Source: a virus
DNA: 40,473 nucleotides
Reading direction: 5' to 3' (one strand)
IMG/VR virus record: IMGVR_UViG_3300035181_000141
Coordinates: 1-40,473 of that record
The notes beneath the pieces were generated by a model. The model made no database searches. It was not told the DNA's origin and saw only the letters and a list, made by a program, of their open reading frames with translations. The position numbers and the translations under genes are program-made. The stretch's first letter is position 1, and each line of letters starts with the position of its first letter. Shown here in pieces: positions 4,580 to 37,750 of the stretch.

Positions 4580-4801
4580 TTGGCTAAAGATAAAGATGGC
4601 ATGATTGTCACAAAAGGGCGTGTTACTGATGCAGCACCAGGAGCAAAATTTAAAGTTAAATTAGAAAACGGACACACCCTTAATGCCGTTATTAGTGGTA
4701 AAATTAGAAAGAATAATATTCAAATTTTATTAAATGATTTGGTGGAAGTGGAACTTTCATGTTATGATCTTACATTAGGGCGTATTACTTATAGATTTTA
4801 A
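4580..4801 (+). CDS. infA: translation initiation factor IF-1
   Basis: This is a phage-encoded IF-1, which binds the ribosomal A site on the 30S subunit during initiation. The 73-residue product matches bacterial IF-1 across its whole length: N-terminal [28 protein letters not shown] (residues 28-45), IQIL (47-50), VEVEL and [11 protein letters not shown] (62-72), the OB fold with its conserved basic residues. The start is a TTG at 4580: only this codon gives the standard MAK N-terminus, and TAGGA lies about 9 bases upstream. The downstream antisense endonuclease overlaps its 3' end by 27 bases. Chromosomal infA is usually near 72 codons, so this copy is full length and looks functional. Confidence 0.9.
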
Positions 4802-5539
4802 CCAGTCTTTCTCCCACACTTGAACAAGGGCATATCCTGCAGATTCTATAAGAGATATTCTTTCCATAGTTAAAGAATATAATTCGCCGAATGTTTTCTT
4901 ATTATTCGAATTTACCTTTTTATGATCATATGTATCGGGATTACCGTGCCAATAATCGCCCCAGTATTCATATATAGTGTTTGTATTCGGATCATATGCG
5001 TCTACCTTAATTCGTTTAGATCCGAGTTTAATCCAAATTTCTCGATATTCTTTACATATATGTAAAGAATCTAGCCATACTTGTGATGCTTCGGAAACTG
5101 GTCCTGATCCGCATCGTTGACACCCGGCACGTTTATGGACATCGGGTGATTGGGAGAATTCTCCATGAACTGGACAGATAATTTTCATTATAGATGTTAT
5201 CCCAGTGAATGTTTCGTCCAGATATGTATATTTGTTATTATGGAAGTTTTTTGCAAATAGAATAAATTTATTATATGATGATATTTTTTTGGAAATACCT
5301 TTTTTGATATTCCCACAGGTAGGACATCCACATTTTCGCGTAGTATGACTCATCGGGGTTTGCATCCACTCGCCGTGTTCGGGGCATATAATTTTTATAT
5401 GCGTATGTGCGTTAATATAATCTACATAACTGTAGTCATATTTATTATTATGTATTATTTTAGCTTTATCTATAAATTCGGATAATGGCATCCGTTTTGC
5501 TAAAGATATTGCTGTTCCACGAGGCTTATATTTTGACAT
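4775..5539 (-). CDS. DUF723-type zinc-ribbon homing-endonuclease-like protein
   Basis: This 254-residue protein has two tandem DUF723-like modules. Each has HNNKY..Y, then IICPxHGE, then a CxxC pair (first at residues 30-75 with C52, C72 and C75; second at 100-143 with C122, C140 and C143). They are followed by a nuclease-like domain with VDAYDP (179-184) and [12 protein letters not shown] (190-201), resembling PD-(D/E)xK, EDxHD or very-short-patch-type endonucleases. Such proteins are usually free-standing homing endonucleases in phages. It is antisense to its neighbours and wedged between infA and dnaJ, overlapping the end of infA by 27 bases. A GATAAATA late core lies only 5 bases before the ATG, so the message should be leaderless. 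Confidence 0.8.
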
Positions 5540-5581: not shown

Positions 5582-5589
5582 GATAAATA
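5582..5589 (+). promoter_or_regulatory. late promoter core abutting start codon (GATAAATA)
   Basis: The octamer ends 6 bases before the dnaJ ATG. No Shine-Dalgarno sequence lies between them, so a leaderless dnaJ message is predicted. It is divergent from the minus-strand core at 5545-5552. Confidence 0.65.
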
Positions 5590-5595
5590 TAGTAT

Positions 5596-6396
5596 ATGAA
5601 AAAAGATTATTATGAAATATTAGGGTTAGAACGAACTGCTACCGCTGAAGAAATTAAAGGCAGATATAAACGCCTAGCGATGAAGTTTCATCCTGATCGA
5701 AATCCCGGGGAAGGCTCCGCAGCAGCCGAGGAAAAGTTTAAAGAAGCAAAAGACGCATATGAAGTATTGAGTGATCTCGAAAAACGCAAAGAATATGATA
5801 CCTATGGCCATGCCGGACCAGGATTTTCAAATAACAGGTCTAGTTGGACACATCAGAGCACTGATACAGCACAGTTCGATGAGATGTTTAAGGCATTCTT
5901 CAATCAACGACCACAGCAACCGCAGCAACAACAAACAACAACACATATATTAACGATATCTCTTGCAGATGCATATATAGGTAAGTCGATAAGAGTTAGT
6001 TCGTCAGCAGTGATTAATGTTCCACGAGGAGCAAGATCTGGAACTAAATTTTTTGTTGATAACAAAATGTATCGTGTTGATATACAACAGCATTTTAAAT
6101 TTAAACGATCTAATGACGATTTACTAGTTGACGTAACAATTGATGCTATCGAGGCCATGGTTGGCATGGATGCTATACTAGACCACTTAGATGGTGTTAA
6201 ACTACAGTTTGTAATACCAGCAGGCATACAGCCCGGGCAAATAGTTAAATTATCAGGCAAAGGAATGAGAAACCCCGAACTTGATAAACATGGTGATATA
6301 TTAGTTCGCATCACTATTACTATTCCGAAGGCACTGACTGTTGCACAAGCGGAAGTTTTAAAAACATTGACACACAGAGATTCAATTAATATTTAA
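5596..6396 (+). CDS. dnaJ: DnaJ/CbpA-type co-chaperone
   Basis: This is a J-domain co-chaperone that should stimulate a host DnaK. The J domain occupies residues 1-70, with the essential HPD at 32-34 and a final [12 protein letters not shown] short glycine/phenylalanine stretch and a glutamine-rich linker (about 105-117) follow, then the substrate-binding C-terminal domain with [12 protein letters not shown] near 243-254. The four CxxCxGxG zinc repeats of classical DnaJ are absent, so it is a class II, CbpA-like member, slightly short at 266 residues. It lies 10 bases before the ClpA-type gene, so chaperone and unfoldase are probably co-transcribed. No DnaK or GrpE gene is in the window. Confidence 0.92.
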
Positions 6397-14792: not shown

Positions 14793-14814
14793 AAAAGGGA
14801 CTTCGGTCCCTTTT
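14793..14814 (+). terminator. intrinsic terminator
   Basis: A 9-bp stem AAAAGGGAC / GTCCCTTTT with a TTCG tetraloop is followed by ATTTTG. It closes the monocistronic unit that begins at 14341. Confidence 0.88.
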
Positions 14815-14838
14815 ATTTTGAGTTTATTTTCGTATCTA

Positions 14839-14846
14839 GATAAATA
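14839..14846 (+). promoter_or_regulatory. late promoter core abutting start codon (GATAAATA)
   Basis: The octamer ends 6 bases before ATG 14853 with no ribosome binding site between. A leaderless message is predicted for the sigma-region-4 gene. Confidence 0.65.
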
Positions 14847-14852
14847 CATAAT

Positions 14853-16235
14853 ATGAAAATACTAGAACTCCTGCTACCGAAGTCCATGATAGATAAAGGT
14901 CTATCAACAAAGTCTATGAAGCAAATCGACACTTTACAAGTCCGGATGGATCTGTATGTTGATAAACTTTGTGGCATGGCTGCAGGTACTGCTCGTGATT
15001 TCCTAAAGTCTAAATTAAAAGCTGACTATATCGCACTTAAGGATATTATTAAGAAAAATAATGTAGCTGAGAGTGCTGAAAATACGGAAGACAAGCAATA
15101 TGAAGTATATGATCGTCAGACTGGTAAAGTTGTAGGCAAACCATACTCTAGTTTGTCAAGAGCGTCTAGAGCAGTCGACAGATTAGATAATAAGTATGGC
15201 GGATATAGATACGGAAAACGCCCTGTTACTCCTGTAACCGAGGCGCGACCTAATCGACAAACATCGACATATAATCCGGACAGCGATACATACAATGGTG
15301 AGAAAATGCCTACATTGCGCCCAGATCCTGCAGACAACGCAGAACAACTAAGATCTATAGCAAGTGATCCATTACATAGCTACGACCTTGATACCGATAG
15401 TATAGATGCTAAAAAGTTAATAGCGAAATACATGAAAGTATTATTACCGAGGCACCAGGATGTAATAAAAATGCGATTTATGGACGGCATGACACTCGAA
15501 GAAGTGGCAAAAGTGTTTGGAGTGCATCGTGAACGCATAAGACAGATAGAAGCATCGTCATTAAGAGCAATACGGAGAGAAATAGACAGGAGTGATATAG
15601 CAAGGGCATCTATATATAAACCTGTGGTAAGAACACCTTCCACAATAAATGCAGTCGAACTTAAACGTCTATCCGAGGTTGAAGAATTGGACGAATTATC
15701 AGTTAACACACTAAAGAGTTATTTTGGTAAATCGGGCAAAGATGCAGAGGGGCATATTGCTAAGGCAAAAGCAGGCGTGGACAAAGAAAGCTCGAGTGCC
15801 CATGCTAAAAAGCGTATGAGTGGAATGAAACAAGCAGTAGGTAAACTTTCTAAAGCCAGGCAGCGCGGTGAAAAATTATCCGAAGCAGTTCATAAACTTC
15901 CGCTCACGCCCGAAGATTTCGAAATGGTTAAGCGTTTAATGGAAAAACCGATTCCAGCTATCGTAGCACCTATTTACATATCGGAAATTATCAATGATGA
16001 CGAATTAAACGATCAATTTACTTCGTTAGAAGAAACTGACCCGGGTCGTGATATTAGACCACTTATAGTAGAATGGCTTAACAGAGTAATGCCCGACCAA
16101 ATGTATCGTTTCGGCCAAGCAGTTGCCGATGAGACACAAAGAAAAGGTTTGCTATCACCCATACACGGTTACGATGACCATCAATACAAAGGTACTAACA
16201 ACGGTACCCCCGGAAATGCTACAGGCCGTTTCTAA
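14853..16235 (+). CDS. multidomain late protein with sigma-70 region 4
   Basis: In this 460-residue modular protein, residues 197-243 match sigma-70 region 4 closely: LLPRHQDVIKMRF, then MTLEEVAKVFGVHRERIRQIEASSLRAIRR split over two helices, the -35-recognising helix-turn-helix. No sigma region 2 is present, so it cannot open promoters alone. Around it are an N-terminal helical region (1-70, MKILELLLPK), a YEVYDRQTGKVVGKPYSS module with YGGYRYGKRPV (84-125), a helical segment ELDELSVNTLKSYFGKSGKDAEGHIAKA (278-305) of a kind I associate with phage head-internal proteins, and a C-terminal helical domain ending in a Gly/Asn-rich tail. It may be packaged, ejected and act on host RNA polymerase; that is inference. 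Confidence 0.75.
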   Translation: MKILELLLPKSMIDKGLSTKSMKQIDTLQVRMDLYVDKLCGMAAGTARDFLKSKLKADYIALKDIIKKNNVAESAENTEDKQYEVYDRQTGKVVGKPYSSLSRASRAVDRLDNKYGGYRYGKRPVTPVTEARPNRQTSTYNPDSDTYNGEKMPTLRPDPADNAEQLRSIASDPLHSYDLDTDSIDAKKLIAKYMKVLLPRHQDVIKMRFMDGMTLEEVAKVFGVHRERIRQIEASSLRAIRREIDRSDIARASIYKPVVRTPSTINAVELKRLSEVEELDELSVNTLKSYFGKSGKDAEGHIAKAKAGVDKESSSAHAKKRMSGMKQAVGKLSKARQRGEKLSEAVHKLPLTPEDFEMVKRLMEKPIPAIVAPIYISEIINDDELNDQFTSLEETDPGRDIRPLIVEWLNRVMPDQMYRFGQAVADETQRKGLLSPIHGYDDHQYKGTNNGTPGNATGRF

Positions 16236-16320: not shown

Positions 16321-16572
16321 ATGGCGAAATTAAGCCCCGAAAACATCGCACGACTAAAACAATTAATTAAAGATGGCGTGAGTGTTCTACAAGAAGTGGA
16401 AGACTTAAAGGCAGGTCTAAGCGATACAGTTAAATCAATAGCAGAAGAATTAGAAGTAAAACCTGCACAGTTAAATAAACTTATCAAGATCTGTCAAAAA
16501 GGCAAGATGAATGACCAGCGCGAAGACTGGGAAGAACTGGAAGAATTATATAAATCCGGGGGATTGGGTTAA
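16321..16572 (+). CDS. DsbA-like double-stranded DNA-binding protein
   Basis: This 83-residue helical protein resembles T4 DsbA, a small dsDNA-binding protein that affects late transcription. The best-matching region is residues 43-80 (AEELEVKPAQLNKLIKI..., then a basic GKMNDQREDWEELEELYKSG), equivalent to the conserved part of DsbA with its (V/D)xxxLNxLLxLYxK pattern. The match is from memory of the family and is moderate. The stop shares one base with the DNA polymerase start, so the two are translationally coupled. Confidence 0.6.
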   Translation: MAKLSPENIARLKQLIKDGVSVLQEVEDLKAGLSDTVKSIAEELEVKPAQLNKLIKICQKGKMNDQREDWEELEELYKSGGLG

Positions 16573-19523
16573 TGTATGTCGACAGTTATTTTAACAGGAA
16601 CGGCAAAGAAGAAGTAATTAAGGTAGTAGAACGTATAAACGGTAAAAGAGTTTATAAAGAATATCCGCCCGACTATCATTTCTATGTTAGTGATCCGCGT
16701 GGATCACATAAATCAATCTATGGAAATACACTCAAGAAGATTGTCCCACAGTCATTTACTGAAAAACAAAAATTAGTTAAGACAATGTCAGGTAATGTTA
16801 AGAAATGGGAATCCGATGTTAATCCCATAGGACGTTGCTTAGAACATAATTATCATTCGGGCGAAGCACCTGCGCTAAATGTAGCCTTTTTCGATATTGA
16901 GACTAGCTTTGATAAAGAAGAAGGTTGGTCCGAAGCTGCTGATGCAGACAATTATATAACTGCTATATCGGTTCATTTACAATGGCTTGACGAAATTATC
17001 TGTCTAGCATTTCCTCCCGAGACATTAACGTGGGAAGAAGCATCGGCAATTGCAGATGAAGTAGGTAATGTAGTTCTGTTTAAGACCGAAGTTGAAATGC
17101 TAAATGCGTTTATCGATGTAATATCTGATGCAGATGTATTATCGGGATGGAATTCAGAAGCGTATGATATTCCGTATGTAGTAAATCGTATAAAGAAAGT
17201 ATTAGGTAAACACGAAGCTCGTAGACTCTGTCTATGGGATCAATCGCCGAAAGAACGTAAGTATGAACGTGGTGGTCGCGAAGCGTTGACATATGATTTA
17301 ATTGGTCGAATTTCGATGGATTATATGCAGATTTACAAACAATACAACTATGAAGAACGACATAGCTATGCGTTAAATGCGATTGCAGAAATTGAACTTG
17401 ACGAAACAAAAATTGCATACGAAGGAACACTCGACGAATTGTATAACGATGATTTTAGGAAATTCTTAGAATACAACCTTCAAGATACACGTTTGTTAGA
17501 TAAACTTGATAAGAAATTACAGTTTATCGACTTAGCTAATTCGATTGCGCATTCTAGCTGTGTATTGATTCCTAAGGTTATGGGTGCGGTTGCAGTAACA
17601 GACCAAAACGTGTTAATGGAAGCACATAATCGTAATATGATTTGTCCTGACAAGAAACATACTAGCAGTGAAAAAGACGTAAGGGCAGCAGGTGGATGGG
17701 TAGCAACACCGAGGAAGGGATTCCACAGATGGATTGGTAGCACAGATATGAAATCCTTGTATCCGTCTGTTATTAGAACGTTGAACATGAGTCCAGAAAT
17801 GATCGTTGGACAGATCAGACTAGATCGCACTAATACAGCAATTGCAGCATGGGAAGCGAAAGGCGCCAGATATACATTTGCATCGTGGTGGAATGATAGA
17901 TTTCATGTATTAGAAATGGACGATTTCTATAATGAGGACATTGGTAACAAATTAATTCTCGATATGGAAGACGGGTCTGAGTATGAAGTAACAGGCAAAG
18001 AACTTCATGACTTAATCTTTGAGGGAGGTCAACCTTGGTGCATTAGTGCAAACGGGACAATCTTTAAGACTGACGCTGACGGTGTAATTCCTAGTCTATT
18101 AACACGATGGTACAGTGAACGTAAAGTGTTGCAAGGTATTATGACTAATTACGAGGATATATCGGATAATGCTAAAATGGCAGGTGTTAAAGTACCTAGC
18201 GACTTGTTTAGTATAGAAGATATTAGTGATACAGATATAAAGGCAAATCCTTATATAGATTCCGAATCATATAAGCCTAAAAAATTACGAGAACTTATTA
18301 CTGAGGGTCATAAGAAGCGTGTCGTGCAATATATGAACCAACATAATTTAACAGTTAAGGATGGTAAAGCAATTTATAGAGATCAAGCAGTCTTAGCACG
18401 TATTATCAGTTTCTGGGACAAGCGTCAACTAGTTAAGAAAATTAACCTTAACTCTGCATATGGTGCGTTATTGAATGCAGGTAGCAGATTCTTCGATCAA
18501 CGCTTAGGGCAATCAACTACTTTAACTGGTAGAACAATTACTAAACATATGGCTGCTAAAACAAATGAAATGATCACAGGCGAATATGATCATTACGGTA
18601 AGTCAATAGTATATGGCGATACTGACTCGTGTTATTTTTCGGCATACCCTAGTCTTAAAGAAGAAATCGAGAATGGCGATATCCTGTGGACAAAGGAAAG
18701 TGTTGTGGATTTATATAATGATTTAGCTAAAGCTGTATCAGCAACATTTCCCGAATTCTTATTATCTAGTTTGCATGTGCCAGTTAAGCGTTCGACCGGT
18801 GTAATTGCTAGTTCACGTGAAACAGTATCTGAGACAGGTATATGGATGGTTAAGAAGCGTTATGCTTGTTTGATGTATGACAAGGATGGTATTAGACTTG
18901 ACGTTGCTGGCAAAGTAGGCAAAGTAAAGGCTATGGGTCTTGATTTAAAACGCGCAGATACACCGAAATTCGTGCAAAAATTCTTGTCAGACATACTGAT
19001 GGATACTCTTACAGACAAGGGCGAGAACGCTGTGATAGAGAAGGTTCGTTTGTTCAAAGAAAAATTTGAAGATATGAAACCGTGGCAACAAGGTACACCT
19101 CGTTCAGTTAATAAGTTAACTCATTATAAAGACAAACTTGAAGATGCAGGGTTCAAAAAGATGAAAGGGATTCATGTAGGTAATTTACATGTACCTGGAC
19201 ACGTAACGGCCAGCCTTGCATGGAATAGGTTAAAAGAAGTTCATATGGATCAACATGCTATGCGTATCATCGATGGACAAAAGATTATTATTTGTAAATT
19301 AAAAGAAACAAGTGAAAATAGATTATCAAGTATTGCTTATCCCGTCGATGAAACACATTTGCCGGAATGGTTCTTGAGTCTCCCGTTCGATAGTGAAGAT
19401 ATGATGGCAGGTATCGTAGATAAGAAGGTAGAAAACTTGTTAGGTGTTCTTAAATGGGATCTTAGTAGAACAAATAAAGAACATGCACATTTAGAGACAT
19501 TATTTGATTTCAGTAACATGTGA
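16572..19523 (+). CDS. 43: DNA polymerase, family B (T4 gp43-like)
   Basis: This is the replicative polymerase with proofreading, 983 residues against 898 in T4. Exonuclease motifs are intact: FFDIETS (106-112, D108 and E110), VLSGWNSEAYDIPYVVNRI (exo II) and YNLQDTRLLDKL (exo III). Polymerase motifs follow in order: STDMKSLYPSVIRTLNMSPE (motif A), KKINLNSAYGALLN (motif B) and VYGDTDSCYF (motif C, both catalytic Asp). The N-terminus MYVDSYFNRNGKEEVI resembles the T4-type N-terminal domain. The start shares a base with the upstream stop. It should work with the adjacent sliding clamp; helicase, primase and clamp loader are not in the window. Confidence 0.96.
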   Translation: MYVDSYFNRNGKEEVIKVVERINGKRVYKEYPPDYHFYVSDPRGSHKSIYGNTLKKIVPQSFTEKQKLVKTMSGNVKKWESDVNPIGRCLEHNYHSGEAPALNVAFFDIETSFDKEEGWSEAADADNYITAISVHLQWLDEIICLAFPPETLTWEEASAIADEVGNVVLFKTEVEMLNAFIDVISDADVLSGWNSEAYDIPYVVNRIKKVLGKHEARRLCLWDQSPKERKYERGGREALTYDLIGRISMDYMQIYKQYNYEERHSYALNAIAEIELDETKIAYEGTLDELYNDDFRKFLEYNLQDTRLLDKLDKKLQFIDLANSIAHSSCVLIPKVMGAVAVTDQNVLMEAHNRNMICPDKKHTSSEKDVRAAGGWVATPRKGFHRWIGSTDMKSLYPSVIRTLNMSPEMIVGQIRLDRTNTAIAAWEAKGARYTFASWWNDRFHVLEMDDFYNEDIGNKLILDMEDGSEYEVTGKELHDLIFEGGQPWCISANGTIFKTDADGVIPSLLTRWYSERKVLQGIMTNYEDISDNAKMAGVKVPSDLFSIEDISDTDIKANPYIDSESYKPKKLRELITEGHKKRVVQYMNQHNLTVKDGKAIYRDQAVLARIISFWDKRQLVKKINLNSAYGALLNAGSRFFDQRLGQSTTLTGRTITKHMAAKTNEMITGEYDHYGKSIVYGDTDSCYFSAYPSLKEEIENGDILWTKESVVDLYNDLAKAVSATFPEFLLSSLHVPVKRSTGVIASSRETVSETGIWMVKKRYACLMYDKDGIRLDVAGKVGKVKAMGLDLKRADTPKFVQKFLSDILMDTLTDKGENAVIEKVRLFKEKFEDMKPWQQGTPRSVNKLTHYKDKLEDAGFKKMKGIHVGNLHVPGHVTASLAWNRLKEVHMDQHAMRIIDGQKIIICKLKETSENRLSSIAYPVDETHLPEWFLSLPFDSEDMMAGIVDKKVENLLGVLKWDLSRTNKEHAHLETLFDFSNM

Positions 19524-33244: not shown

Positions 33245-33273
33245 TAGACAAACCCATTCAGACATAGTATAAT
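33245..33273 (+). promoter_or_regulatory. sigma-70-type promoter abutting start codon
   Basis: TAGACA (33245-33250), a 17-base spacer and a perfect TATAAT (33268-33273). Only 5 bases separate the -10 from ATG 33279, so transcription should begin at the start codon and the message be leaderless. No Shine-Dalgarno sequence is present. Confidence 0.75.
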
Positions 33274-33278
33274 AGTAT

Positions 33279-34331
33279 ATGACACTTATCCCTAATAAAC
33301 GACGAACATTCATTCATACAGATGGATCAAATTTGTTTTATAGACAAATCAAGATGGTGAATCCTGCATTGGGTATCGACTCAGCAATTGGCATGGCATT
33401 ACATATGATTTTGCAGAGCATGAAGAAAGAGTACCTAAAATGGAATGGTACACATGTTGTATTTCACATGGAAGGCCGGTCATGGCGCAAAGGCGTCTAT
33501 CCCGATTACAAAGGTGATCGTAAATTAAAATTTGCAGAACAAACTCTTAAAGAACAAGAAGATCATGGAATCCTGGTTGAGGCATTCGATGATCTAGTAA
33601 ATTACTTAGCTGAGAAGACGAATGTTACTGTGTTACAAAATGCAAATGCAGAAGCAGACGATCTTATAGCAGTATTCATCGAAGCACATCCTGATGATGA
33701 CCATATACTTATTAGCTCAGATTCAGATTTTTTCCAACTTCTAGCATTTCCTAATGTAATGCTATACGACCCAGTCAAAGACATACAGATTAAACAAGAC
33801 GGTGTATATGACGACTATGGCAATCGCCTATCATTTGTTCTTACGTCAGATGCTAAAATTAAAGCTGGTGGCAAAGATCCGCATTTTGTATGCGAACCGG
33901 AGTGGTATAATTATGCACTATTTCTAAAGTGTGTACGAGGCGACAAGACAGATAATATCTTTAGTTCGTATCCGGGTGTCCGTGAGAAGGGCACTAAGAA
34001 ATCTATAGGAATACGCGAGGCATACGCCGACAGGGATAATAAGGGCTATAATTGGAATAACTTTATGATGTGTAAATTTACACACCACGATGGTACACAA
34101 CACACAGTCCGCGATGATTTTAATTTTAATGAGTCACTTATCAGGCTCGATAAGATTCCCGAGGATATAAAAATTGGATGCCTTGTAACTATTGCAGAGA
34201 CGACAGGTGTCAAGTCTGTCCCAGCAGCTGATATTGGGTTTGGCTTTTCGAAATTTTGTGGTAGATGGCAATTAACAAAAATTGGAAATACTTTGGCAGA
34301 TTTTATGCCTATGTTAAAATCGAAATATTAA
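33279..34331 (+). CDS. rnh: 5'-3' exonuclease / RNase H (T4 Rnh-like, FEN family)
   Basis: This 350-residue structure-specific 5' nuclease would remove RNA primers and flaps in replication. Acidic metal-site motifs of the FEN family are present: FIHTDGSN (11-18), VVFHMEGRSWRKGVYPDYK (59-77, with the arginine/lysine helical-arch segment), NAEADDLIAVF (123-133), LISSDSDFFQLL (142-153) and VRGDKTDNIF (about 219-228). It is longer than T4 RNase H (305). The promoter lies so close that the transcript should be leaderless. Confidence 0.88.
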   Translation: MTLIPNKRRTFIHTDGSNLFYRQIKMVNPALGIDSAIGMALHMILQSMKKEYLKWNGTHVVFHMEGRSWRKGVYPDYKGDRKLKFAEQTLKEQEDHGILVEAFDDLVNYLAEKTNVTVLQNANAEADDLIAVFIEAHPDDDHILISSDSDFFQLLAFPNVMLYDPVKDIQIKQDGVYDDYGNRLSFVLTSDAKIKAGGKDPHFVCEPEWYNYALFLKCVRGDKTDNIFSSYPGVREKGTKKSIGIREAYADRDNKGYNWNNFMMCKFTHHDGTQHTVRDDFNFNESLIRLDKIPEDIKIGCLVTIAETTGVKSVPAADIGFGFSKFCGRWQLTKIGNTLADFMPMLKSKY

Positions 34332-34341
34332 GGAGCGTAAT

Positions 34342-34647
34342 ATGGCCGGGATGAATAAGTCATTAGAAGAATACGAAAAGAATAATGGATGGAGCTCATC
34401 ACTATTCTCTGCTAATGCAATTTCGTTGATGGGTGATCTAGTCAGAGAAGGTGTCGATGTTTCTGTTGGTCGAACGGTTATACACTTAAAAAAGAACAAT
34501 ACAACTCTTAAGGCGTATGTGCATTATAAGGGTCGAAGTGAAGAATACGCAACGATTACAGATTACAAAGGTAATGAATTATTAACTGTTCATTATGCTG
34601 AATTTGAAAAATTATCAAAATTTATTAAAGGAACACTATGTCCGTAA
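34342..34647 (+). CDS. hypothetical protein, 101 aa
   Basis: This small alpha/beta protein follows the nuclease with AAGGAG in front of ATG 34342. Strand-rich C-terminal half (VIHLKKNNTTLKAYVHYKG, ELLTVHYAEFEKL). The family is not recognised. Confidence 0.6.
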   Translation: MAGMNKSLEEYEKNNGWSSSLFSANAISLMGDLVREGVDVSVGRTVIHLKKNNTTLKAYVHYKGRSEEYATITDYKGNELLTVHYAEFEKLSKFIKGTLCP

Positions 34648-35129
34648 AATTAAAGCCTATCACAGAAACTTGCTGGTTAGTAATAGGTGATGCCGAAGAA
34701 AACAAAATAGGATTGTTGACTGAAATTCGTAGTCAATATGTGCTAATGGTTAAAGGCGAGAAACAGCAATTCATTAATCGTAAAGAAGTCAACAAATTTT
34801 TTAATGAAGATGTATTCTGTAATGTTATAGAATCTACAACAATAGAAGATGTTAAAAAAGATTATTTCATAAATGGATATCCTGTAGATTTCGATATGCC
34901 GAACGAAGTAATTCTGAAGGGTAATAAATTACCATTGTTCAGTAAAAAGGCGAGCAGTGACGTTTATTACAGTGCAGGATACTATTGCCTTAATTTTCCT
35001 AAGAATTGGATGCCTGCATATTGCCCTAAACTATCGACACTGGAAGCATACGAATATACAGGGCCGTGGAAGACTGAAATGGAAATGCGTCTATCATTGA
35101 CAAAGAATCGTAAAGAAAAGAACAAGTAA
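34638..35129 (+). CDS. hypothetical protein, 163 aa
   Basis: The family is not recognised. It starts at ATG 34638 inside the previous gene by 10 bases. The N-terminal part has CWLVIGDAEENKIGLLTEI, the centre is helical, and a cysteine/tyrosine-rich stretch YYSAGYYCLNFPKNWMPAYCPKL (split near 113-135) precedes a basic tail (KNRKEKNK). Confidence 0.6.
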   Translation: MSVKLKPITETCWLVIGDAEENKIGLLTEIRSQYVLMVKGEKQQFINRKEVNKFFNEDVFCNVIESTTIEDVKKDYFINGYPVDFDMPNEVILKGNKLPLFSKKASSDVYYSAGYYCLNFPKNWMPAYCPKLSTLEAYEYTGPWKTEMEMRLSLTKNRKEKNK

Positions 35130-35132
35130 TTA

Positions 35133-35330
35133 ATGTCCGAAATCAATAAACTACGTGCAAGGTTAAGGAACGTTCAGCGGAATGTGACAGAATATAGAAT
35201 GACTGTAGCTGAAGCAAAAGAGTTATTAAGCGAGATTGATAACTTAGCTATACCGGTCGTCAAGGTAGTATCTGCGCCAATTGTTGTGGAACCGCCCACA
35301 GTGCGTATTATAGATGGTGGTACTTTTTAA
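35133..35330 (+). CDS. small hypothetical protein, 65 aa
   Basis: The N-terminal half is a basic helix (INKLRARLRNVQRNVTEYRM) and the C-terminal half is valine/proline-rich and probably extended (VVKVVSAPIVVEPPTVRII). It overlaps the convergent gene at 35327 by 4 bases. The function is unknown. Confidence 0.55.
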   Translation: MSEINKLRARLRNVQRNVTEYRMTVAEAKELLSEIDNLAIPVVKVVSAPIVVEPPTVRIIDGGTF

Positions 35331-35539
35331 CGAGGTACTACTGATATATGTAATTTGGGATTTTCTGCATACTTACGTTCTGCTACTTTCATGGCAGCAT
35401 TATGTGTGTCGAAATTTCCCCATTTCTTTCCATTAATTGATATACAAAATTTTCCAACTCGCTTAGGTACAGATGCTTGATACGTACCGTCCATGCCAGC
35501 ATTCTTTACTCGCCCTTCAAACAATTCAAATAATCTCAT
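35327..35539 (-). CDS. small basic late protein, possible capsid-internal protein
   Basis: This 70-residue protein (MRLFELFEGR then basic and strand-rich, for example GKFCISINGKKWGNF near 29-43 and AAMKVAERKYAEN) might bind DNA. The first 10 residues contain two LFE tripeptides, fitting the (L/I)xE rule for T4 gp21-type prohead protease sites. A GATAAATA late core lies 18 bases upstream with GGGA as ribosome binding site. It is antisense to its neighbours. Confidence 0.6.
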   Translation of the reverse strand: MRLFELFEGRVKNAGMDGTYQASVPKRVGKFCISINGKKWGNFDTHNAAMKVAERKYAENPKLHISVVPR

Positions 35540-35557
35540 AATATTCCCATAGTAAGC

Positions 35558-35565
35558 TATTTATC
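35558..35565 (-). promoter_or_regulatory. late promoter core (GATAAATA)
   Basis: The minus-strand octamer lies 18 bases before ATG 35539. Confidence 0.6.
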
Positions 35566-35600
35566 ATCGTTTCCTAATAGTCATTAAAAGTATATATTTA

Positions 35601-35608
35601 GATAAATA
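35601..35608 (+). promoter_or_regulatory. late promoter core (GATAAATA)
   Basis: The octamer lies 24 bases before ATG 35633, with TGGAGA as ribosome binding site. It is divergent from the core at 35558-35565. Confidence 0.65.
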
Positions 35609-35632
35609 TGTATATATTATTGGAGAAATGTA

Positions 35633-35926
35633 ATGGCTCGACCTAAACCACAAATACTTTTAGAGAATGTAAATAAAAGTTATAAAGCTGAACAAGTGCT
35701 TAATGCCGATGCGATTTATGCAGTATTCTATCTAGGTAAGCCAATTAATCTTCGGACACTTAGCCACCTTATTTCATATCCTGGCCCAAAATATAAGAAA
35801 GTAAGTTTTTCTAATTCGGGGCATGCCTTTAACTTGGCTGAACGGTTAAATAAGATGTTTAAGACTACAGATTTTACTGTTGTTAAATTAACAGTTGGGG
35901 AAGTTTGCACCGAAGTCGATGACTAG
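35633..35926 (+). CDS. late protein of unknown function, 97 aa
   Basis: This small basic protein is not recognised by function, with a conserved-looking core [20 protein letters not shown] (24-43) and [25 protein letters not shown] (split near 50-74). A late promoter and good ribosome binding site support a real gene of virion or late function. Confidence 0.65.
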
Positions 35927-35947
35927 TAGCATGTAAGAGTATATAAT
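35919..35947 (+). promoter_or_regulatory. weak sigma-70-type promoter abutting start codon
   Basis: A perfect TATAAT (35942-35947) lies 5 bases before ATG 35953. The -35 at 35919-35924 (ATGACT) is poor but has 17-base spacing. A leaderless message is predicted. Confidence 0.5.
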
Positions 35948-35952
35948 ATGTT

Positions 35953-36291
35953 ATGATTAAATATTACGGTAAACAACATGTCAACGACATTATATATTCT
36001 GTATATAAGGTCGGTCGTGTAGATTGGAGTTGGATGTCTAGTTGTAAGAGAGAATTGCCCAGGGAATTCTATGAAAGCGATGTATTATATCATAGCCGTG
36101 TTGTAACACATTTTGTCAAACAATATCTGCCAGATGTGTATAAATGGGTAGCTGATACAGGAGTTCGTTCGTTCGGCACAGTTATAAATAGTATGCAAAC
36201 TCTTGAGGCTGATTTAGTTCTAAATCTTATTTTAACACCGGAAGACGAGACTGCTTTTAGATTAGTGTTTGATGTTAGGGCAGCGAACTAG
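35953..36291 (+). CDS. hypothetical protein, 112 aa
   Basis: The family is not recognised. It is an alpha/beta protein with an aromatic N-terminal part (VDWSWMSSCKRELPREFYESD near 24-44) and a C-terminal strand pattern LEADLVLNLILTPEDETAFRLVF. The tail overlaps the convergent zinc-peptidase-like gene by 17 bases. It is predicted to be translated from a leaderless message. Confidence 0.6.
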   Translation: MIKYYGKQHVNDIIYSVYKVGRVDWSWMSSCKRELPREFYESDVLYHSRVVTHFVKQYLPDVYKWVADTGVRSFGTVINSMQTLEADLVLNLILTPEDETAFRLVFDVRAAN

Positions 36292-36649
36292 TAAAACACT
36301 CGGGATACTTTTCACCGAACTTACGCATTATTACACCAGCTTGCGCATTAGCTTCGTTCTCTATATCGCTACCGTCTTCACCGTCCATCTCCTGACCTGA
36401 AAGTTTTTGTTTCCAGTGTGTCAGTTCATGCGCCAGCGTTCTAAATATGTCAACTGGATGTCTTCCAGTTGTTATTACTTCTATAGTTTGGCCATCGAAT
36501 TGACCGAATGACATCTTATCACCCGACTTAATTGCAGGATCATCACTTATCATTCGAACGGTAGGTAACTCGGATATTCCCAGTTCTTGTTTGCATAGAT
36601 TGAGCAAATGAGTTATCATTGGTTCTAAAATTGTCTCACGTATTTTCAT
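36275..36649 (-). CDS. small zincin-like metallopeptidase, possible capsid-internal protein
   Basis: This 124-residue protein has the zinc-binding signature LAHELTHWKQ (72-81; HExxH at 74-78) and a likely third ligand in DIENEANAQAG (95-105). The ~70 residues before it (SFGQFDGQTIEVIT) fit the edge strand of a zincin. It is small, like SprT-type or DUF-type phage zincins. The N-terminus MKIRETILEP carries IRE and ILE, compatible with a capsid-targeting leader. The GATAAATA core ends 5 bases before the ATG, so the message should be leaderless. Target unknown; a prohead or host-envelope substrate is possible. Confidence 0.72.
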   Translation of the reverse strand: MKIRETILEPMITHLLNLCKQELGISELPTVRMISDDPAIKSGDKMSFGQFDGQTIEVITTGRHPVDIFRTLAHELTHWKQKLSGQEMDGEDGSDIENEANAQAGVIMRKFGEKYPECFTSSLP

Positions 36650-36654
36650 ATCTA

Positions 36655-36662
36655 TATTTATC
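36655..36662 (-). promoter_or_regulatory. late promoter core abutting start codon (GATAAATA)
   Basis: The minus-strand octamer ends 5 bases before ATG 36649, with no ribosome binding site. Confidence 0.6.
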
Positions 36663-36678
36663 TCGTTATATGATTTAG

Positions 36679-36707
36679 TTGTTTATTTTTTGTATATGTG
36701 TTATACT
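36679..36707 (+). promoter_or_regulatory. sigma-70-type promoter abutting start codon, extended -10
   Basis: TTGTTT (36679-36684), a 17-base spacer and TATACT (36702-36707) preceded by TGT. The ATG at 36715 follows after 7 bases, so the transcript should start at the codon. Confidence 0.7.
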
Positions 36708-36714
36708 GTAATCT

Positions 36715-36939
36715 ATGAAAAAACTATTAGAACGAATCTCGCTGTGGGGTGCTGTATCAGCATCATTATTATTAGCATTACATATACCGATATCCGGATG
36801 GGCTTACATATTATTCTTACTGTCTAATATTGCATCCATATATTTATTACATGGTACTACTGCGCCTAAAGTAATAACACACCAAAGTTACTTTTTTGTT
36901 TTTATTAATATTATCGGAATAATTCGCTGGCTTGTATAA
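36715..36939 (+). CDS. small polytopic membrane protein, 74 aa
   Basis: There are two or three hydrophobic helices (about residues 10-26, 29-45 and 57-73) with a lysine/arginine-rich start (MKKLLERISLWG) and an end in FFVFINIIGIIRWLV. The final helix resembles the end of PnuC- or SemiSWEET-like small transporters, but the protein is too short to assign. It shares one base with the next start. Confidence 0.6.
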   Translation: MKKLLERISLWGAVSASLLLALHIPISGWAYILFLLSNIASIYLLHGTTAPKVITHQSYFFVFINIIGIIRWLV

Positions 36940-37289
36940 TGCATCCACTTAAAATACTAATTTTTATAGAAGTAAGGAAATCTTTCGCAGAGTATCAGCA
37001 ATCGGATGACTTAGCATTAAACAAATTATTATTCATGCACATAGAAGGATTACGGTTATCGCTGACAGGCTTCCGATTGATAAAGAAAATCTTCACTGCG
37101 TATTCGTTTGAGTTACCCGATACGATTATGTCTCGACACCAGCGCGGAATGTCGAAGATGGAGTATCCCTATTTTTTCACTGCAAAGCGATTAATATTAT
37201 TTTCGGAAATGGATGCCATGGTTATTAAACTGGCTGGTGGTATCGAACCTTTCTTGGAAACTTGTTGTCAACTTGACAGACCTGACTAA
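36939..37289 (+). CDS. hypothetical protein, 116 aa
   Basis: This is a basic, mostly helical protein with hydrophobic segments too broken for confident membrane spans. The family is not recognised. It overlaps the upstream membrane protein stop by one base. Its last codons contain the promoter of the next gene. Confidence 0.55.
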   Translation: MHPLKILIFIEVRKSFAEYQQSDDLALNKLLFMHIEGLRLSLTGFRLIKKIFTAYSFELPDTIMSRHQRGMSKMEYPYFFTAKRLILFSEMDAMVIKLAGGIEPFLETCCQLDRPD

Positions 37290-37301
37290 AAAAGCTATAA
37301 T
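37273..37301 (+). promoter_or_regulatory. consensus sigma-70 promoter abutting start codon
   Basis: Perfect TTGACA (37273-37278), a 17-base spacer and perfect TATAAT (37296-37301), the best promoter in the window. The ATG at 37307 lies 5 bases after the -10, so the message should be leaderless. Confidence 0.85.
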
Positions 37302-37306
37302 TAGCG

Positions 37307-37750
37307 ATGGATGATATCAATAAATCAGAAGATGCACTATTCGAAACGCTAATGATTGACAAATCGTGGCGATCACCATGCCGGCCACATTATTATAGTA
37401 ACGGACGTTTATGGGAAGATTGGTGGGGGTGGGCAACCGGGCCACTTGATGCAGTCTATATAAATAAGGAGAATGTATATCATCGAATATACGGCCCTGC
37501 ATATGTTAGCACAAAGTATGGCATTGAAGCATGGTATAAAGACGGTAATTTTCATAGATTAGATGGCCCTGCGTATCAGCATAAAGGTAGTAAATTCTGG
37601 CTCGTCGACGGTAAATTTCATAGATTAGATGGCCCGGCAGTGGATGCGAAAGGGCATCCGAAGGAATACTGGATAGGTGGTCAACGGATGTCGCCAAAAA
37701 TTTACAAAAAAGAGATCGAACGCAGAAAGCGTAAAGGCCTGATAAAATGA
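37307..37750 (+). CDS. HRxDGPA-repeat protein, 147 aa
   Basis: This protein is built of MORN-like repeats: YHRIYGPAY near 60-68, FHRLDGPAY near 83-91 and FHRLDGPAV near 104-112, each followed by a W-Y-x-D-G or W-L-V-D-G strand. The DNA reflects this, with TTTCATAGATTAGATGGCCC repeated at about 37551 and 37616. Such repeats are widespread in large phages and giant viruses; function unknown, though they may mediate protein contacts. A basic tail (KKEIERRKRKGLIK) follows. It overlaps the next start by ATGA. Confidence 0.75.
   Translation: MDDINKSEDALFETLMIDKSWRSPCRPHYYSNGRLWEDWWGWATGPLDAVYINKENVYHRIYGPAYVSTKYGIEAWYKDGNFHRLDGPAYQHKGSKFWLVDGKFHRLDGPAVDAKGHPKEYWIGGQRMSPKIYKKEIERRKRKGLIK

Follow-up and report, generated by a model that had tools for sequence, protein, structure and literature searches.

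Promoters fused to start codons predict leaderless genes of two promoter classes in an uncultured clade of T4-superfamily jumbo phages

Leaderless genes are already known as a kind, including lambda cI among phages, and their known route of translation is the direct binding of the ribosome, mostly as 70S, to a 5'-terminal AUG (PMC9031893). In the bacterial 'TA-led' leaderless genes (Zheng et al. 2011, PMC3160421), a Pribnow-like box precedes the start by ~10–12 bp. For Lactococcus cremoris, ~13% leaderless messenger RNAs (mRNAs) and no leaders between 4 and 14 nt were measured, a gap taken as reflecting two initiation modes (PMC10986495). The DNA analyzed here is a 40 kb piece of the genome of an uncultured jumbo phage (40,473 nucleotides; IMG/VR record IMGVR_UViG_3300035181_000141; referred to as the window), in which sigma-70-type promoters and late promoter cores of the sequence GATAAATA end directly before start codons. 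These fused promoters are predicted to yield leaderless mRNAs, translated alongside genes led by a Shine-Dalgarno (SD) sequence, with a probability of about 0.86.

A preliminary description of the window had named eight promoter–ATG fusions, four of the sigma-70 type and four at late cores. All eight were located as described, with 5–7 bp between promoter and start codon; all eight genes start with ATG, and an SD sequence is absent from every one. The features are as follows, beginning with the sigma-70-type fusions of the right arm.

33245–33281, plus strand: promoter TAGACA (33245–33250), 17 bp, TATAAT (33268–33273); 5 bp to ATG 33279
33279–34331, plus strand: predicted leaderless gene, 5'-3' exonuclease (PF02739)
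35919–35955, plus strand: promoter ATGACT, 17 bp, TATAAT (35942–35947); 5 bp to ATG 35953
35953–36291, plus strand: predicted leaderless gene, 112 amino acids, without known family
36698–36717, plus strand: extended -10, TGT then TATACT (36702–36707); 7 bp to ATG 36715
36715–36939, plus strand: predicted leaderless gene, 74 amino acids, hydrophobic
37273–37309, plus strand: perfect consensus promoter TTGACA (37273–37278), 17 bp, TATAAT (37296–37301); 5 bp to ATG 37307
37307–37750, plus strand: predicted leaderless gene, 147 amino acids, repeated DG(N/K)FHRLDGPA units
5552–5545, minus strand: late core GATAAATA, 5 bp before ATG 5539
4775–5539, minus strand: predicted leaderless late gene, endonuclease-like (PHROG 681/559)
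5582–5589, plus strand: late core GATAAATA; 6 bp to ATG 5596; forms a divergent pair with the 5539 promoter within 56 bp
5596–6396, plus strand: predicted leaderless late gene, DnaJ-like co-chaperone
14793–14823, plus strand: intrinsic terminator AAAAGGGAC-TTCG-GTCCCTTTT with U-run; hairpin 14793–14814, then T-rich tail; -13.9 kcal/mol, z -3.7
14839–14846, plus strand: late core GATAAATA, 6 bp before ATG 14853
14853–16235, plus strand: predicted leaderless late gene, 460 amino acids, sigma-70 region 4 domain (residues 194–241)
36662–36655, minus strand: late core GATAAATA, 5 bp before ATG 36649
36275–36649, minus strand: predicted leaderless late gene, 124 amino acids, N-terminus MKIRETILE

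A T4-type family B DNA polymerase is encoded in the window (16572–19523), for which the closest matches in GenBank, Sinorhizobium phage Phosso and Agrobacterium phage Atu_ph07, share only ~41–43% identity. It is matched by 56 viral metagenome loci, many at >75% identity; megablast against GenBank returned no near-identical phage for the window. The clade scan was performed on six contigs, namely the window and five jumbo-phage relatives (385, 369, 363, 210 and 166 kb), and the cultured phages T4, RaK2 and Atu_ph07 were put through the same scan. Octamers before the first ATG were counted over 1619 called genes, with a permutation test, and a scan independent of gene callers was run on nine clade contigs, some of them closely related to one another.

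Promoter cores, their spacing and conservation, and the two separate classes are direct observations. On the six contigs, the distance from GATAAATA to the ATG was bimodal, with 41 cases at 4–7 bp, 5 at 8–14 bp and 107 at 15–30 bp, so that roughly a quarter of the late promoters in the clade are fused; in the 15–30 bp class, 94 of the 107 starts are accompanied by an SD sequence. Clade totals in the caller-free scan were 73, 9 and 137 for the same three distances. In 39 genes the first ATG followed the octamer GATAAATA at 4–7 bp; for 167 permuted octamers the mean was 0.57 and the maximum 12, the maximum stemming from frame-shifted copies of the GATAAATA motif itself. For TATAAT, the fused peak lies at 5–7 bp (19 sites at 4–7 bp; permutation mean 6.2). 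Sixteen fused TATAAT sites have a TTGACA-like -35 box with ≤2 mismatches, which in 15 cases stands at 17 bp; this independent element is decisive for the fused TATAAT class. The genome survey proposed in the preliminary description thus gave a fused class for both promoter types, with the gap at 8–14 bp nearly empty.

Clade-wide, the start codons 4–7 bp from a late core are 60 ATG and 7 GTG/TTG. The -10-type elements stand at a distance that would bring the transcription start onto the start codon, as is typical of leaderless genes, and the late core is an 8-bp TATA-like box without -35, found genome-wide upstream of genes as in T4-type late promoters. Late cores 4–7 bp from an ATG numbered zero in T4 and RaK2 and at most two in Atu_ph07; fusion, being essentially absent from these three, is therefore a trait of the uncultured clade.

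The arrangement is retained in orthologues. Of the orthologous loci of gene 14853, 24 of 29 keep the fusion, at 4–6 bp; for gene 36649 (minus strand) it is kept in 15 of 17 orthologues, 14 of those 15 at exactly 5 bp. Among the sigma-70-type genes, 9 of 14 orthologues of 37307 have a fused -10 together with a -35 no more than one mismatch from TTGACA, five of the nine relatives compared have a fused TATAAT at gene 33279, and several orthologues of 36715 have TATAAT, TACAAT or near matches at 5–6 bp. Across orthologous fusions the ATG is retained, the spacer letters differ and the spacer length varies by 1–2 bp; since the distance is kept and the letters are not, selection on the fusion itself is argued for. 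The family of 35327–35539 (minus strand) is leadered in the window, with GATAAATA 18 bp away, and fused (7 bp) in relative G004, from which it follows that genes can switch modes.

The expected position of the first transcribed nucleotide was derived from leadered promoters of the same phages. After the late core, the strongest preference is for A at the fifth and sixth base (0.55 and 0.54). T4 late boxes begin at -13 (PMC2988020), which places +1 at the sixth base after the octamer, and in the commonest late fusions, of 4 and 5 bp, the A of the ATG is the fifth or sixth base. Leadered TATAAT promoters prefer A at the seventh position, behind a pyrimidine, and at fused TATAAT promoters the A of the ATG occupies the sixth to eighth position. 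The initiating nucleotide would accordingly be the A of the AUG or a position 1–2 nt away.

The following course, from the start of transcription through a leaderless 5' end to the way of translation, is inferred. The RNA polymerase of the host would read TTGACA-17-TATAAT when carrying a sigma-70 factor and GATAAATA when carrying a late sigma of the phage's gp55 type. Transcription would begin at, or within 1–2 nt of, the A of the ATG, giving an mRNA that opens with AUG and lacks both a 5' untranslated region and an SD sequence, and the ribosome would probably bind this 5'-terminal AUG to initiate. Other genes of the same phages would use the same promoters at least 15 bp away, with leader and SD sequence. 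A gp55-family late sigma factor was found in the near-complete relatives G001–G004, which agrees with the reading of GATAAATA as a T4-type late promoter, and the label 'late core' of the preliminary description was retained on this ground. Translated into leaders, the 8–14 bp gap would correspond to roughly 3–9 nt. The gap measured in Lactococcus cremoris agrees with it independently; of all arguments, this one speaks most strongly for the fused class being one of translation and not only of promoter arrangement. Leaderless expression, as first proposed for the window, is supported rather than proven by the spacing classes, by the scarcity of downstream SD-led starts, by the conservation of start codon and fusion, and by the position of the ATG at the preferred A; each prediction of this reading that could be computed held.

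The ribosomal protein bS21 is encoded in four of the five relatives (G001, G002, G003 and G005), and bS21 sits beside the anti-SD sequence (PMC9723584). It is conceivable, though doubtful, that a two-track programme exists, in which certain early and late genes, always the same ones, would be leaderless so that intact 70S ribosomes, or ribosomes modified by the phage, could translate them once SD-led initiation has been altered or shut down; that bS21 might participate in it is speculation from co-occurrence. A phage IF3 was considered as the cause and rejected, IF3 not being found in the five relatives. In G005 (L241:231-2618), the bS21 gene is flanked by genes that are, as judged from translations, ClpX-like, Hsp20-like and apparently ClpS-like.

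Three other explanations were weighed. Chance might be invoked, as TATA-like hexamers are abundant near ATGs in an AT-rich genome, and between 33100 and 37500 the number of weak promoter matches indeed equals the shuffled expectation. The octamer excess over permutation, the -35 boxes at 17 bp, the conservation in orthologues and the near absence of fusion from the cultured phages under the same scan refute it as a general explanation, so that it is scarcely credible for the whole set; it may hold for single weak cases, e.g. 35953. Alternatively, the ATG-adjacent cores could be rarely used, with functional mRNAs coming from upstream promoters and being translated from long leaders by SD-independent, A/U-rich initiation. 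About half of the other genes have no clear SD sequence, which makes SD-independent starts probable in these phages, and for 46 of the 67 fused late genes the gene upstream runs in the same direction. Yet the fused cores are as well formed as the leadered ones, those of the sigma-70 type having precise -35 boxes, an A/U-rich enhancer would not predict the 8–14 bp gap, and permuted octamers of the same composition show no enrichment. Furthermore, transcription arriving from upstream of gene 14853 is ended by the terminator shortly before the fused promoter, and 5539 (minus)/5596 (plus) and 36649 (minus)/36715 (plus) are divergent pairs, so that five of the eight window genes could not easily obtain a leader by read-through. 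Clade-wide, the upstream neighbour is divergent in 31% of the fused and 23% of the leadered late genes, compared with 8% on average. Rare use of the fused cores was consequently considered unlikely.

Equally, the annotated starts could be wrong, with transcription beginning near the ATG and translation at a downstream SD-led start; start prediction from sequence alone often errs. The orthologues of 33279 (62–72% identical) start 6–7 codons further in; however, their fused promoter is shifted along and stands at their own ATG. In general, the alignment of orthologues begins at residue 1. True starts at downstream ATGs with SD sequences had been named in the preliminary description as a finding against the leaderless reading; a candidate of this kind, in frame and within 25 codons, occurs in just one of the 67 fused late genes and in none of the 16 fused sigma-70 genes, compared with 7% of all genes. 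Misplaced starts were therefore judged very unlikely, slightly more so than rarely used cores.

Leaderless expression from the fused promoters thus remained the preferred reading; several points besides the shifted starts at 33279 weigh against it. At 4- or 7-bp fusions the start is uncertain by 1–2 nt, and transcription starting on the T of the ATG would abolish translation. The seven GTG/TTG codons at 4–7 bp may be chance occurrences. The promoter of 36715, with its poor -35 (TTGTTT), is the weakest of the eight. Co-directional genes end 65, 26 and 17 bp 5' of 33279, 35953 and 37307, respectively, and a second, leadered read-through transcript could arise at these three. A host was sought via genome contigs, and none was found among them.

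Within the window, boxes of the TTGACA/TATAAT type spaced 16–18 bp apart are present in three of the four sigma-70-type promoters, 36715 having the extended -10 instead. The perfect consensus reported earlier at 37273 was confirmed. The pattern TTGACA-17-TATAAT-6-ATG is absent from the window because the actual spacing is 5. Of 18 promoter-like sites between 33100 and 37500, the top two (12/12 and 11/12 matches) are both fused. The protein of 37307–37750 had no match in Pfam or PHROG; gene 35953 had no homologue in the viral collection, and its reality rests on the reading frame. Each of the 11 GATAAATA octamers in the window lies just 5' of a gene; in the seven that are not fused, the open reading frame starts 18–38 bp away, mostly with an SD sequence.

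In the product of gene 14853, the sigma region 4 lies inside a middle part of ~270 amino acids without counterpart in the ~190-amino-acid orthologues, the conserved parts being the N-terminus MKILELLLPK and the final 120 residues. The gene was considered as the late sigma factor and rejected, given the location of this region in the extra part and given that the gp55 homologue of the relatives is another gene. The protein of 36275–36649 (minus strand) has an AHELTHWK motif, suggesting a small HExxH metalloprotease-like protein, without a Pfam match. A short motif like M[KR]xxE(I/L)(L/I)xE was observed at the N-terminus of 15 of 68 fused late, 10 of 186 leadered late and 31 of 1337 other genes, counts that include orthologues repeatedly; carriers are 36649, 35539 and 9362 (all minus strand), 14853 and their relatives. 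We take it to resemble T4 capsid-targeting peptides, and its carriers are perhaps head-packaged proteins.

Phage mRNAs without leaders, lambda cI for instance, are usually seen as isolated cases; in the present clade, apparently, a whole lineage is concerned, and the cultured relatives and T4, being essentially without fusions, offer a natural comparison for why a virus drops its leaders. Annotation is corrected as well, as start finders that expect an SD sequence may misplace such starts, and precise, testable predictions of 5' ends follow. The question why huge phages carry bS21 is also touched. In the open-access literature, no paper was found that describes T4-type or GATAAATA late promoters at leaderless genes, which is weak evidence of novelty; the apparent novelties are the scale on which a jumbo phage of the T4 superfamily shows such genes, the two promoter classes, the restriction to a clade and the conservation at the level of orthologues.

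Compared with known systems, the genes resemble the 'TA-led' genes (PMC3160421) in lacking SD sequences and in coexisting with SD-led genes in one genome. The 'TA-led' genes are cellular and of one promoter type, whereas two classes, one putatively read via a phage sigma, occur here in a T4-superfamily jumbo phage. In lambda cI, the classic leaderless phage mRNA, the AUG is 5'-terminal, as predicted here, but cI is a single gene, in contrast to tens of genes per genome. The leader gap of Lactococcus cremoris (PMC10986495) was sequenced in a bacterium, whereas here it is deduced from the spacing of phage promoters. With the T4-type late promoters (gp55; PMC2988020, PMC7892883), the late cores share the 8-bp A/T box, the lack of a -35 and an A/T-rich initiation region; they differ in that the preferred octamer opens with G, not T.

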